Positions 2,628 through 25,419 of a stretch of DNA of 43,080 nt are shown piece after piece. The notes beneath the pieces were generated by a model that had not been told where the DNA came from, did not search any database, and was given only the letters and a program-made list of their open reading frames with translations. The number at the start of each line of letters is the position of its first letter. Position 1 is the first letter of the stretch. This DNA comes from an uncultured SAR86 cluster bacterium (GTDB taxonomy: Bacteria; Pseudomonadota; Gammaproteobacteria; Magnimaribacterales; D2472): the NCBI GenBank assembly GCA_902517505.1, contig CABYCL010000008.1:1-43080 (forward strand). Direction: 5' to 3'. Made by a program: the position numbers and the translations under genes.

Positions 2628-4610
2628 ATGGATAATTTAATAATTTCACCAGTTTTAGGTCTGTTAGGTATGGCCATGGCATATGTAATTTATATGCTTG
2701 TAATGAAATATCCTGATGGTGAAGATAAAGTAAAGAAAATTGGTGACCAGATTCATACTGGAGCATTAACCTTTATGAAAACAGAGTATAAATATCTGTT
2801 TATTTTTATGACAGTGATCGTTGGCTTAGCTTGGTTTGCGCTAGGTCCTTACACAGCAATAGCTGTGATTGTTGGTGCTTTATGTTCATCAATAGCAGGG
2901 TTTATAGGAATGTATGCTGCAACTAAAGCAAATGTAAGAACTGCAACAGCCGCACAAAAAGAAGGTCCTGCAGCAGCTTTAACAGTTTCTTTTTATGGTG
3001 GCTCAATAATGGGTCTTTGTGTGGCATCACTAGGTCTAATAGGCTTAGGTGGTTTATATTATTTTTACATACCAGCTGAAATTGATCCTCACAAGCTTGA
3101 AGGTTTTGCTATGGGAGCATCTGTAGTAGCACTTTTTTCCAGAGTAGGTGGAGGAATTTTCACAAAAAGTGCAGATGTAGGAGCTGATCTTGTCGGCAAG
3201 ATTGAAGCTGGCATCCCCGAAGATGACCCAAGAAACCCTGGTGTTATAGCAGACAATGTTGGTGACAATGTTGGTGATGTTGCTGGGATGGGCTCAGATA
3301 TATTTGAGTCATATTGTGGTTCTATGATCGCATCAATAGCTATAGCTTACACTTTAGGTAATAAAGATATGATGATGCTACCTCTAGCTTTAGCATCAAC
3401 TGGTTTAATAGCATCAATAATTGGAATATTTATAGTTAAGCTTCAGTCAGCAAAAGCTCCTGCGAGCGCATTGAGATCTGGAACTCTTTTAGCGCCAGTA
3501 ATATTTGTGGCCATGGCTTATTTCATAATCGACTCTTTTAAAGGAGTTGGGATGAATGTATGGTGGTGCGTTATCGCTGGTGCAGTAGGAGGAGTCTTAA
3601 TTGGACTTATTACAGAATATTACACAGGCGGTAGCCCAGTTAAAAAAATTGCTGAATCAGGAGAGACTGGTTCTGCAACAGTAATGATTTCAGGATTATC
3701 AGTTGGAATGCAATCAGTTGTAATACCTATTGTTATATTAGCTGGTATTATTCTTGCCTCAACTCAATTATCAGGTATTTATGGTGTTGGAATTGCTGCA
3801 GTTGGTATGCTTGCAACTGTCGGAATTACAATGGCAATAGACGCATATGGACCGGTTGCAGATAATGCTGGCGGTATTGCTGAAATGTCAGGTATGGGTG
3901 AAGAAGTAAGAGAGATTACTGATTCTCTAGATGAATTAGGAAATACTACTGCTGCCATTGGAAAAGGTTTTGCGATTGGAGCTGCAGCTTTAGCTGCTCT
4001 AGCAATAATTTCAGCTTTTTCAGCTGTAGTGGCGGATGCAAATCCTGAATTTTCATTAGCACTCACAGAGCCAATTGTTTTAGTTGGAATGTTTATTGGA
4101 GTATGTATACCTTTCTTAGTTTCTTCAATAACCATGACAGCAGTTGGAGACGCAGCTTTTGAAATGATTAATGAAATAAGAAGACAGTTTAAGGAGATAC
4201 CAGGTTTAATGGAGGGTACAGCAGAGCCAGACTCTGAAAAATGTGTTGCAATTGCAACAACAGCGGCCCTTAAGAAAATGATGTTACCTGGAGTAATAGC
4301 GGTATCAATGCCAGCTATTGTTGGTTTTGGTCTCGGCGCACAAGCCTTGGGTGGAATGCTTGCCGGTGGATTGCTTGGTTGTGTTTCATTAGCGCTGATG
4401 ATGGCAAATGCTGGTGGTGCTTGGGATAATGCAAAAAAATATGTTGAGAAAGGCAACTTAGGTGGAAAAGGATCAGACACTCATGCTGCAGCTGTAGTTG
4501 GAGATACTGTTGGAGATCCTTTTAAAGACACTTCTGGACCCTCAATGAACATTTTAATTAATGTTATGGCGATAGTAAGTCTTGTTATAGCACCTTTATT
4601 AAGCATTTAA
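2628..4610 (+). CDS. hppA: K+-dependent membrane-bound pyrophosphatase (ion pump)
   Basis: Hydrolyses pyrophosphate to pump H+ or Na+ across the inner membrane; 660 aa, multi-spanning. Signature motifs are all present: [18 protein letters not shown] and then DDPRNP and [12 protein letters not shown] around residues 180-220, [12 protein letters not shown] near 405, and [14 protein letters not shown] near 625. The motif [10 protein letters not shown] carries Ala where K+-independent enzymes carry Lys, so K+ dependence is predicted. In DIFES the gate Glu is three residues after the Asp, the spacing of the Na+-pumping Thermotoga enzyme rather than the plant H+ pump. It has its own promoter and terminator, hence a single-gene unit. 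Confidence 0.96.
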
Positions 4611-22292: not shown

Positions 22293-24722
22293 CTAATAAT
22301 TTAATATCGAATTATTCATGAATCTAGAAATTTTTTCAAAGGATGAATTTAATCCTTTTAATTCAAACTCAAAATTAATCCGGCTCTTGTTCTCAATTCT
22401 TATTATATTATCCCATGCTTCATTAAGATATGTGTAGGAATCTGGCTTATAACCGTCCATGTATTTTGAAAAATTTCTATCCGATGCAGTAATTCTAAAG
22501 ACAAAACAACAGTTTTCATATCCAATACCAAGTGATGATTCTATATTTGAATTTGAAACGTCGTCTCTTTTAAACCTAGCAATAATACTAAGATTATCTT
22601 TTAATCTTAAATCCGCAAAGAATTCTGAATAATCAAGCTTCTTGTTAAAATCACCTGTCATTTTTGTATATCTTTTTGCGTACCCAATCTTTCCATTTTC
22701 AAATTTTTGATTAATTGTGATACCTGCCATAGGAAACTTTTTCATCTCCTCTGAGTAACTTCCCATAGTCATTACCATTGTTTTCATATTAGGCATCCAT
22801 CTACCCATTATTACTATAGGCCCTTTATCATTATTCATCATTGACATCATAGGCATCATATTCATATCCATAGCGTTAGACGCCGCGCCCATATCCATCT
22901 CCATAGAGCTCGACATCATTTCATTTTCCATGGATGCCATTCCCACTCCATCAATGAAAACCTTTCTGTCTTTAATATAAAATTTTTGTGAAACTTTCAA
23001 AGATAATTTATTCATACCCATGTGGCGATTAATAAACTCAATACTTAGGGCATAAAAATTTTGATCACCTATTCTGTCCATACCAGTAAATCGTTCTGTA
23101 TTAAAAAGTTGATTCGTCATGCCTAACATATAAGAATCAAAAATAGGATTCATATTTTGATCTTCATGTCCTACATAACCATAAAATAATCTAGGCTTTA
23201 TAATATTTTGATTCATTCCATCTTTTTTTATGAAGAGGGTGCTTAGGTCTGCTTTGAAGGTAGGCACGAGTATTGAATCAGTTTTTAAATTAGTATTTTC
23301 AAGATCATAGCTAATGCCTTTCATCCCCATGGAAGTTATCAGCTTATAACCGTTTAAATTCGAAGAATTGGATATTTCTAAATCATAGAATACTCTCGTT
23401 CCTTCAATAGGGTCTTTAATAAAAGTTCGAAATTTGTTGTTGCTTAAATGATTTCCAAAAAAACCATGAATACTATTTGCCTTAAAGTCACTATAGTTTA
23501 GATATTCGCGTATAGAGATTCTTTTGAATTGTTTGAAATATTCTATATCTATGGAGGGAGCTTTCTTATAACCATTTGTTAAAAGAGGGTTAAGTGATTG
23601 ATAAGCTTCTTGAGATACCTTAATTTTAATATTTTTAAATACACTATTAATATGTATATTCTGTCTTAGATTCTGTTCTCTTTGACTTCCTATTGAAGTT
23701 ATATCACCAGGAATATCTCTTAAAAATAGGCTATCCGATGTTTTTGACCAATCAACATCTATCCAAAAATTTTCTTTTTTGCCATATGTATCTTTTATAC
23801 CAAATGCCCATCTTGAGCTGGATTCATTAGGGTAATTATTTTGATACTCTTTATCTTTATCAAAATAAAAGAAATCTAAATTTCTTAAATTATTTAATTC
23901 ACCATGAATATTTCTAAAATTTCCTTCTACTCCTGCTCCTCTATCAGATATATTTCGAAGAGCAATTGTCATGTCAGACTTATTTGATATAACTTGATAG
24001 TAAGGAATCATAAAATCCAATCCATCAGATGAAAAAGATAACTGAGGTTCTAAAAAACCTGACATTCTTTCTTGTGAAGTCGCAAATGGAATATAAGGAA
24101 GTCTAAGCAATGTTCTATCAAAAGCTTTAATTTTTACTTTTTTTGCATAACCTCTCATCGTTTGGTCATTCAAAACAATGCTTTCAGCTATAAGTTCCCA
24201 TCCATTTGATTTATCTGCACAGGAGGTCATTGAGACTTGATTAAAAATAATATTTTCATCAATATTTCCCTTTAGAGAATCGAAATTGATTATTAAACCC
24301 CTGTTATTAAGAAAAGTTTCACCTTCTTCAAGTGCAATTGAAAGTTTGTCTTTGCTAAACGATCCTGAACTTGCTCTAAAAAAGTAGTCCTTCAAAAATA
24401 GATCACCATTTTTTCTAAAATCTACCAAACCATTATCTTGGTCAACTCTTGCTTTTTCTGAAATAAGTATTCCATCAGGAAAGTCAATTTCAACATTACC
24501 ATTTAATATAAGCGCATTTTGGTCTGTTATTTCAAATTTATCTGACTTGATATCTAAGCTTTCCATATCTTGCACTTTTCCAAGATAGGGCTTGTAAGCT
24601 AGGCAGGTCAGGTTATTACTAGAATTTTTTTCAAGAATACCATCTTCTAATAAATCTCCATTTATATAGCCTTGATGAAGAATGAAAGTCATTAAAAGAA
24701 CTATTTTCTTGGCTCTTATCAT
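22293..24722 (-). CDS. lptD: LPS-assembly protein LptD, with a methionine-rich insert
   Basis: Outer-membrane beta-barrel that with LptE inserts LPS into the outer leaflet. 809 aa (E. coli 784). A weak signal peptide is followed by the OstA/LptA-like periplasmic domain (about residues 50-190) and the barrel. The four disulfide cysteines are present as C40, C168 and the pair C738-C739 (E. coli C31, C173, C724, C725), which supports a functional Lpt bridge. Residues 595-629 contain 15 Met, extending to about 23 Met in 595-665, probably a surface loop; this is unusual. An LPS transporter implies an LPS-containing outer membrane. A 52-bp gap separates it from the upstream isomerase gene. Confidence 0.94.
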   Translation of the reverse strand: MIRAKKIVLLMTFILHQGYINGDLLEDGILEKNSSNNLTCLAYKPYLGKVQDMESLDIKSDKFEITDQNALILNGNVEIDFPDGILISEKARVDQDNGLVDFRKNGDLFLKDYFFRASSGSFSKDKLSIALEEGETFLNNRGLIINFDSLKGNIDENIIFNQVSMTSCADKSNGWELIAESIVLNDQTMRGYAKKVKIKAFDRTLLRLPYIPFATSQERMSGFLEPQLSFSSDGLDFMIPYYQVISNKSDMTIALRNISDRGAGVEGNFRNIHGELNNLRNLDFFYFDKDKEYQNNYPNESSSRWAFGIKDTYGKKENFWIDVDWSKTSDSLFLRDIPGDITSIGSQREQNLRQNIHINSVFKNIKIKVSQEAYQSLNPLLTNGYKKAPSIDIEYFKQFKRISIREYLNYSDFKANSIHGFFGNHLSNNKFRTFIKDPIEGTRVFYDLEISNSSNLNGYKLITSMGMKGISYDLENTNLKTDSILVPTFKADLSTLFIKKDGMNQNIIKPRLFYGYVGHEDQNMNPIFDSYMLGMTNQLFNTERFTGMDRIGDQNFYALSIEFINRHMGMNKLSLKVSQKFYIKDRKVFIDGVGMASMENEMMSSSMEMDMGAASNAMDMNMMPMMSMMNNDKGPIVIMGRWMPNMKTMVMTMGSYSEEMKKFPMAGITINQKFENGKIGYAKRYTKMTGDFNKKLDYSEFFADLRLKDNLSIIARFKRDDVSNSNIESSLGIGYENCCFVFRITASDRNFSKYMDGYKPDSYTYLNEAWDNIIRIENKSRINFEFELKGLNSSFEKISRFMNNSILNY

Positions 24723-24774: not shown

Positions 24775-25377
24775 TTATTTGTTTGAATTTATGTATTCTT
24801 CTAACTGATGTAAATGATCTTTTCCAAAGAATATTTGATCATCATAGAAGAATGTTGGAACACCAAAAGAGCCTCTTTTAACAGCATCGTCAGTATTTGA
24901 TATTAACTTATCTTTACAAGCTTGTGATAAAACAATTTCTATTATTGATTCAACATCAAGATTAGCATCAGCTAGAACCTCTTTTAATACTTCTATATCC
25001 GAGATATTTTTATCTTTTTCCCACATAGCACTAATAACGCATTCAAAGTATTCATTAAAGATTTTTAGTTCTTGTGCCGCTATCGCCCCTCTTTGAACCT
25101 GAATAGTAACTGGAGGAAAATGTGAATTAAATTTGTAATTGGTTAAGTTATGCTGCTTAACAAATCTATCAATTTCTATCATCTGATAGTTACTTTTATT
25201 TTTGCAGTCTGCAAATGCTATAAAAGGAGGTTGATTATTAGATAGTTTATGAATGCCACCTAACAAACAAGGAATATAATTAAATTTTATACCTGTTCTT
25301 TTTTCAAAATCAGGAATTAATTTATGTGCAAGATATGTATTTGGACTTGCAACATCAAAAATAAAGTCTACTTTCAT
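24775..25377 (-). CDS. 2-hydroxychromene-2-carboxylate isomerase / GST-kappa family protein (DsbA-like fold)
   Basis: A 200-aa thioredoxin-fold protein. The N-terminus MKVDFIFDVASPNTYLA matches the HCCA-isomerase/kappa GST group, with Ser in place of the DsbA CxxC (S of SPNTYL). The C-terminal GVPTFFYDDQIFFGKDHLHQLEEYI is the family's second signature. Likely glutathione-dependent isomerase or transferase; the substrate is unknown, and no naphthalene-type pathway is nearby. An in-frame TTG at 25407 would add ten residues, but the family starts just before the VDF strand, so I chose the ATG at 25377. It heads the nine-gene minus run. Confidence 0.86.
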   Translation of the reverse strand: MKVDFIFDVASPNTYLAHKLIPDFEKRTGIKFNYIPCLLGGIHKLSNNQPPFIAFADCKNKSNYQMIEIDRFVKQHNLTNYKFNSHFPPVTIQVQRGAIAAQELKIFNEYFECVISAMWEKDKNISDIEVLKEVLADANLDVESIIEIVLSQACKDKLISNTDDAVKRGSFGVPTFFYDDQIFFGKDHLHQLEEYINSNK

Positions 25378-25419
25378 TTCTATCAACAATTTTGTAAAGT
25401 AAAACAATTAAACACTGAT

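Follow-up and report, generated by a model that had tools for sequence, protein, structure and literature searches.

Most Gram-negative bacteria cannot do without LptDE, the outer-membrane translocon that inserts lipopolysaccharide (LPS) (PMC12685063). In Escherichia coli LptD possesses 13 external loops and meets its partner LptE inside the barrel lumen (PMC6592684). The back of the barrel, where the external loops EL6–EL9 are located, holds its shape upon opening of the lateral gate (PMC12685063), and loop 9 is accessible to antibodies and non-essential (PMC6592684). Among outer-membrane proteins that handle copper, OprC from Pseudomonas aeruginosa is a TonB-dependent importer in which 11 of the 16 visible methionines (Met) form a track from the surface and Met triads hold Ag(I) (PMC8610252). 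Copper efflux by PcoB depends on a disordered, poorly conserved domain rich in His and Met (PMC12509749). Here we describe the LptD encoded on a stretch of 43,080 nucleotides from an uncultured SAR86 cluster bacterium (the window; positions 1 to 43,080, forward strand, of contig CABYCL010000008.1, assembly GCA_902517505.1). This LptD carries a Met-rich, very probably external loop, and Met at strand and turn positions outside the loop appear and disappear together with it in related proteins. From this pattern and the analogy with OprC and PcoB we suggest, with a probability of roughly 0.4, that a Met track on the LPS translocon serves the handling of a soft metal, most likely Cu(I), with Ag(I) also fitting. 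The literature searches found no paper that combines LptD with the term methionine-rich or links LptDE to metal handling; among the papers listed on LptD in connection with copper and the outer membrane, and on SAR86 in connection with copper, no title or opening of an abstract concerned metal binding by LptD.

Identity of LptD and Position of Its Methionines

The window is one contig of a genome of 1.06 Mb that is 82.9% complete. Its lptD gene encodes a protein whose single Pfam match is LptD (PF04453, E 9.7e-31); the score of 107.9 bits against a cut-off of 22.4 assigns it to the LptD family. Two NCBIfam LptD equivalog models, with cut-offs of 683 and 944, gave lower scores of 160.8 and 95.1 bits. 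The best match to LptD chains of the PDB had an E value of 1.7e-41. C40, C168, C738 and C739 align with E. coli C31, C173, C724 and C725, respectively. Thus, all four disulfide cysteines are kept, as had been stated in an earlier note made from the letters of the window without database searches. The features discussed below are the following (positions in the window).

22293..24722, minus strand: lptD, LPS-assembly outer-membrane protein, 809 amino acids (open reading frame (ORF); PF04453; PDB chains; four cysteines aligned with E. coli)
22821..22970, minus strand: whole external loop, residues 585–634, approximately E. coli 588–606 (alignment of 157 LptDs)
22836..22940, minus strand: Met-rich core of the external loop, residues 595–629, 15 Met in 35 (sequence count)
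22794..22820, minus strand: descending strand, residues 635–643, with Met639 and Met643, probably lumen side (polarity in 111 LptDs; E. coli alignment)
22776..22796, minus strand: probable periplasmic turn, residues 643–649, with Met643, Met646 and Met649 (side inferred from topology)
22755..22781, minus strand: ascending strand, residues 648–656, with Met649 and Met651, probably lumen side (polar/apolar alternation of 648–655 in 111 LptDs)
23010..23027, minus strand: probable periplasmic turn, residues 566–571 (RHMGMN), with Met568 and Met570, which co-vary with the loop (side inferred from topology)

The Met-rich segment reported in the earlier note was confirmed in its counts. Residues 595–629 contain 15 Met in 35 positions, the best stretch of 71 residues (595–665, by arithmetic nucleotides 22728–22940) contains 23, and neither His nor Cys occurs among residues 588–669, which hold the same number of Met. 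In 429 ORFs of at least 80 amino acids from this genome Met makes up 2.04% of the residues, and the next best segment of 35 residues has six Met. This sample of 421,523 bases consisted of the window and 378,443 bases in 20 further stretches, about 40% of the assembly. The Met content of the segment is far above chance.

In an alignment of 157 LptDs including that of E. coli K-12 the four cysteines share their columns, and the loop corresponds to E. coli residues 588–606, approximately. Seven strands were read, counting backwards, between the loop and the C724–C725 turn, which is periplasmic in E. coli LptD. By this strand count, which is our own, it is an external loop, number nine of the 13, and is called loop 9 on this basis. 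An AlphaFold2 model of LptD from a five-row alignment (the window, L093, L094 and two pieces of L095) was unusable, with a mean predicted local distance difference test score (pLDDT) of 33.4 and about 25 in the barrel, so that the placement of the loop rests on homology. The Met-rich core is very probably an extracellular loop. The earlier note had regarded the segment as probably such a loop, which holds for the core; eight of the 23 Met (639, 643, 646, 649, 651, 653, 660 and 665) are found outside it, in strands, in turns and in the next external loop.

Met has also taken the place of other residues at 568 and 570 in the turn preceding the first strand of the loop, at 639 and 643 in the strand after the loop, at 646 in a turn, and at 649 and 651 in the next strand. 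According to the alignment E. coli has no Met at any of these positions. The E. coli equivalents of 639, 643, 649 and 651 are D611, R615, G621 and R623. The polarity of the strand positions was read from 111 LptDs outside the genera g1, g4, g6, g8 and g9 (our labels; the genome of the window belongs to g1). Position 639 is polar in 88% of them and 643 in 61%. Along residues 648–655 apolar and polar positions follow one another in turn, 649 and 651 being among the polar ones; the alternation in the strand holding 639 and 643 is less clean. Because they replace mostly polar residues, Met639, Met649 and Met651, and less clearly Met643, are assigned to the lumen side. The strand Met most likely line the lumen rather than face the lipid, and the possibility raised in the earlier note that the segment lies in strands facing the membrane is disfavoured by this residue alternation. 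From sequence we infer the external, luminal and periplasmic placement of the Met, and a continuous Met path in space is suggested by residue alternation and homology only.

Distribution of the Loop and Covariation of Its Methionines

In genus g1 an LptD match was obtained for 27 of 34 genomes, and all 27 proteins keep a Met-rich loop with 12–27 Met in the 61–86 residues around it, length and order varying. The seven genomes without a match are 63–84% complete and therefore little informative. The comparison with related LptDs that the earlier note had proposed found the segment in the closest relatives; it is not strain-specific. The closest named relative is SAR86 cluster bacterium AG-404-A04 with an LptD that is 95% identical. 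A scan of the genome contigs with one protein returned three loci, all of SAR86.

For the family, 86 LptDs were used from 91 genomes with a match. The other five were set aside: in G024 and G100 the gene is in two pieces, in G028 a contig end cuts it, and the genes of G076 and G077 are partial or fragmented. The splitting of lptD into two frames in G024 (AG-912-C05; L095:3001-5389) and G100 (L053) reflects a frameshift or an assembly error. With Met counted at residues 593–642 the loop has 17 residues and 0–2 Met in genera g2, g3, g5, g7 and g10, 17 residues and 4–5 Met in g6, and 19 residues and 3 Met in g8. It comprises 31–32 residues with 6–9 Met in g4, 16–39 residues with 1–11 Met in g9 and 29–54 residues with 8–20 Met in g1. 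The family range thus extends from 17 residues with 0–2 Met up to 54 residues with 20. Over the 86 LptDs, Met increases by 0.47 per residue of loop length (r 0.976). Outside the family none of 70 sampled LptDs exceeded five Met per 35 residues; this sample was read from 20 of 50 genomes of the same order and 50 of 177 of other orders with a match, E. coli not being among them. In viral contigs a 13-row LptD alignment picked up 36 pattern stretches, none of them a relative. A weak extra match in G010 and G014, an ORF of 187 amino acids, was rejected as chance and reads as ribonuclease HII. In family f4 of the same order (genus g13) no LptD match to the SAR86 query was obtained in the f4 genomes listed, and G109 was also without a match to the Pfam model; this family may have no LptD or a very divergent one.

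Six Met positions outside the loop (568, 570, 639, 646, 649 and 651, the core Met) were compared with the loop Met at 593–635. All 37 of the 86 LptDs with at least five loop Met have at least four of the six core Met, 47 have neither loop nor core Met, and no protein has the loop without the core. The same is observed within genus g9, where the ten rows with at least five loop Met have 5–6 core Met and the four rows with 1–2 loop Met have 0–1. Seven non-loop columns (427, 568, 570, 639, 649, 651 and 663) divide these 14 rows in the same manner as the loop. Among the 1001 ways to choose four of 14 rows, seven columns were reached only by the observed choice, with cut-offs that were set after seeing the data. 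Six other Met columns split less or not (220, 548, 590, 643, 688 and 696; of these 220, 548 and 643 do not split).

The LptE-Like Partner

The gene of the presumed partner is located between leuS and holA, the same place as E. coli lptE; its product is a short lipoprotein that matches LptE weakly. In genome G026 the LptE-like gene is flanked by tRNA-synthetase and DNA polymerase III delta domains; the corresponding locus of the window's genome, L194, has by reading the same layout. The lipobox cysteine was likewise recognized by reading only. Scores of 14.8 and 16.3 bits were obtained with PF04390 (cut-off 23 bits); this cut-off was exceeded in none of 19 genomes, and the name LptE-like derives from gene position and weak similarity, not from a family score.

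An alignment search for LptE gave matches at E ≤0.1 in 90 of 107 genomes, of which 70 were read; the remaining 20, some of them very weak, all belong to g3, g5, g6 and g7. Eleven of 30 LptE-like proteins of g1 possess an insert of 6–30 residues rich in Met and His, among them that of the window's genome (L194, SMNMDHSM). None of the 40 proteins read from other genera of the family has it. The motif MDHS is present in nine of the 11 inserts, and in a quick LptE tree their distribution is explained by two changes. As a DNA pattern MDHSM occurs once in the 82.9% complete genome, inside lptE. In the 34 genomes of the genus there were 14 matches in 12 genomes, nine (eight genomes) inside known lptE and five outside, and one match for the reversed control. 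The insert is located in a hairpin with its E. coli counterpart around IPGRDIYP. In E. coli Thr95 of LptE contacts external loop 4 of LptD (PMC12685063). Since the hairpin follows about 17 residues past the segment matching Thr95 (weak alignment, 6.3 bits), it probably points to the periplasmic end.

One genome, G001, combines features of two groups. Its LptD with flanks (L005, contig C2) is 98–99.5% identical to L006 of the MDHS-bearing clade. Its LptE (L222, on the same contig) by reading resembles those of G018 and G030 and is without insert, which indicates recombination or a composite assembly.

Alternative Explanations and Possible Selection

The joint presence and absence of the loop and the lumen-side Met would also be expected of contact partners. 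The loop could fold into the lumen, make Met–Met contacts with the strand Met, LptE or LPS acyl chains and act as a greasy plug or as a gate helper. Contact with LptE in the lumen is described for loop 8 of E. coli LptD (PMC6592684). However, Asp, Asn and Ser among the Met leave the loop not greasy overall, Leu, Ile and Phe seldom stand in for Met in the alignment, and packing does not predict the make-up of the LptE insert from Met, His and Asp. Structural packing and an oxidant sink are the main rivals of the metal reading; packing is a possible but rather doubtful explanation.

Surface Met might instead absorb peroxide, hypohalous acids and singlet oxygen in sunlit water and thus shield an essential translocon. 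An antioxidant role of exoprotein Met has been argued for Bacillus cereus (PMC5526929), and the SAR86 order is most abundant above 100 m, although one family, maybe not that of the window, increases with depth (PMC11582366). Such a sink would be of single use, as the family that includes the periplasmic reductase MsrP (PF00174), which would restore oxidized Met, was found in none of the 34 genomes of the genus (controls positive 9 of 14; MsrA and MsrB were not searched for), and a periplasmic enzyme would hardly reach an external loop. It would probably also be an expensive one. SAR86 genomes are described as having no sulfate incorporation pathway and probably using organic sulfur (PMC11582366); Met is for this reason probably costly. 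Moreover, an oxidant sink needs neither lumen-side and turn Met in step with the loop nor His in LptE, and we consider it quite unlikely.

A third explanation is neutral slippage, in which repeats containing ATG grow and shrink in a dispensable external loop; that E. coli loop 9 is exposed and non-essential (PMC6592684) would agree with this. The earlier note had regarded repeated CAT triplets on the plus strand as a sign of replication slippage. The window bears this out only partly, with one weak array at 22836–22860 (9-bp unit, 2.8 copies). Some relatives have better arrays, and 24 of the 86 lptD genes possess a tandem array overlapping the loop, so that duplication apparently supplies loop length. 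The periods are mostly 9, 15, 27 or 33 bp and the match is 63–100%. The units differ between lineages, yet 22 of the 24 contain ATG; the exceptions, not plainly Met-based, are L019, which reaches into the strand, and the Met-poor L039. Slippage can explain the changes in length, but within the loop it cannot generate the co-varying Met of strands and turns.

The loop Met codons are also conserved relative to their neighbours in two well-sampled clades, with 0.032 versus 0.087 and 0.077 versus 0.187 nonsynonymous changes per site for Met and other loop codons, respectively. In L021–L023, with few changes, the values were 0 of 144 for Met versus 2 of 179 for the others (0 versus 0.011). The lower rate of change at the Met codons of the loop, together with single Met codons far away that track it, points to selection. 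Chance and pure slippage are disfavoured, and neutral slippage as the full explanation appears decidedly unlikely.

It is very improbable that phages drove the change of an exposed receptor loop and that Met accumulated as a by-product. Phages do use LptD as a receptor, in enterobacteria (PMC12685063) and in Pseudomonas (PMC12892993), and the loop differs in length even among close relatives. An arms race, however, should alter residues freely, whereas Met stays while length varies, and a part played by lumen-side and periplasmic positions would be unexpected. Saving of nitrogen by Met in place of N-rich residues was dropped, the loop being rich in Asn.

A Possible Soft-Metal Function

For the handling of a soft metal by the Met track, Cu(I)/Ag(I) is the best-supported candidate chemistry; the earlier note had named it beside an oxidant sink. 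Clusters consisting only of Met favour Cu(I) and Ag(I), and the Met/His insert of the LptE-like partner lends further weight to this assignment. In one branch of SAR86, LptD would have gained a methionine track made up of the flexible Met-rich loop 9, lumen-face Met of the two following strands and Met in the two periplasmic turns beneath. In the subclade of the window the LptE-like lipoprotein, expected inside the barrel, would add a Met/His hairpin, which reads MNMDHSM in this genome and is longer in relatives. A soft metal could be bound at several weak Met sites and either be held at the surface or move along a Met ladder, as proposed for the track of OprC, and LptDE would meanwhile keep its LPS job. 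As the LptD loop contains neither His nor Cys, a modest metal affinity is to be expected. An extended version appears unlikely. Here the LPS translocon would double as an outer-membrane conduit for Cu(I): loop 9 collects the metal, the lumen Met ladder carries it past LptE, and the LptE hairpin hands it over in the periplasm, all this in cells without the copper export and oxidation proteins that were searched for.

Several results speak against a soft-metal function or weaken the case for it. In the genus the searches were negative for PcoB/CopB (PF05275; 0 of 34 genomes, controls positive 1 of 14), for multicopper oxidase (0 of 34, controls 8 of 14) and for the CopA-type copper ATPase (TIGR01511; 0 of 34, controls 14 of 14 positive, 13 over cut-off). 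All four families searched for, PF00174 included, were also without a match in the six genomes that are at least 90% complete. These negatives cover the families named; CusA-type efflux, HMA chaperones and OprC-like receptors were not searched for. The genus may be without a standard copper-exporting ATPase, and since the copper machinery searched for gave no matches, there is no pathway that a copper track would obviously feed. The window's loop is free of His and Cys, and relatives have a few His. Two of the 86 LptDs (L041 and L048) possess core Met with fewer than five loop Met. The rows compared are related to one another, and a tree-based test of the covariation had four independent pairs, too few for a decision, of which three agree and none opposes (p 0.25); within g1, g4, g8 and g9 it was two of four pairs (p 0.5). 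Two losses may be enough to account for the Met-poor rows of g9. The codon comparison is reversed in the pair that includes the window (L001–L002; 0.091 for Met versus 0.037, few sites) and shows little difference in g9 (0.064 versus 0.077). In addition, alignment of repeats tends to pair Met with Met and thereby flatters the conservation of Met codons. Finally, the alignment of SAR86 LptE to the E. coli protein is weak, and the insert is limited to one subclade, whereas the LptD Met reach 10 of the 14 g9 rows and g4.

If the track binds copper, the LPS inserter of a major lineage of the surface ocean has become a surface that handles metal. This would bear on copper management in streamlined ocean bacteria in which the usual export proteins were not found. 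The covariation of loop and lumen also offers a natural set of proteins for testing how loop 9 of LptD, the barrel wall and LptE communicate.

Neighbouring Genes

After lptD come surA, pdxA and a gene for an rRNA adenine dimethylase. Directly upstream, at 24775–25407 on the minus strand, is a gene of the DSBA family (PF01323). Its position beside the gene of a disulfide-dependent barrel makes a DsbA role tempting; by reading, the protein is without CxxC or signal peptide and is probably no DsbA. The window also encodes a membrane H+-pyrophosphatase (2628–4610, plus strand; PF03030, E 7.4e-254).

Comparison with Known Systems

SAR86 LptD and its partner share with their E. coli counterparts the family, the four cysteines, the location of lptD beside surA and that of lptE between leuS and holA; they differ in the seven strand and turn positions that bear Met in the LptD of the window and not in that of E. 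coli. MDHS-type repeats occur in the copper-resistance proteins CopA and CopB, for which a literature search with the motif gave nothing usable. The SAR86 insert, in contrast, is part of a hairpin in an LptE-like lipoprotein and not of a copper-resistance protein. With OprC the SAR86 protein has in common an outer-membrane barrel, a run of Met inward from the surface and proposed weak sites for Cu(I)/Ag(I) (PMC8610252). Unlike OprC it is an unrelated LPS translocon of 26 strands. Neither the CxxxM-HxM site nor the fold of a TonB-dependent receptor was found, as residues 588–669 contain no His or Cys and the Pfam match is to LptD only. The likeness to PcoB/CopB consists of a poorly conserved stretch rich in Met and His on an outer-membrane barrel, His and Met both being needed in PcoB (PMC12509749). 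The stretch of PcoB is, however, N-terminal and His-rich, and LptD has no match to PF05275. Thus, the make-up of SAR86 LptDE is similar to that of OprC and PcoB; it belongs to neither of the two families.

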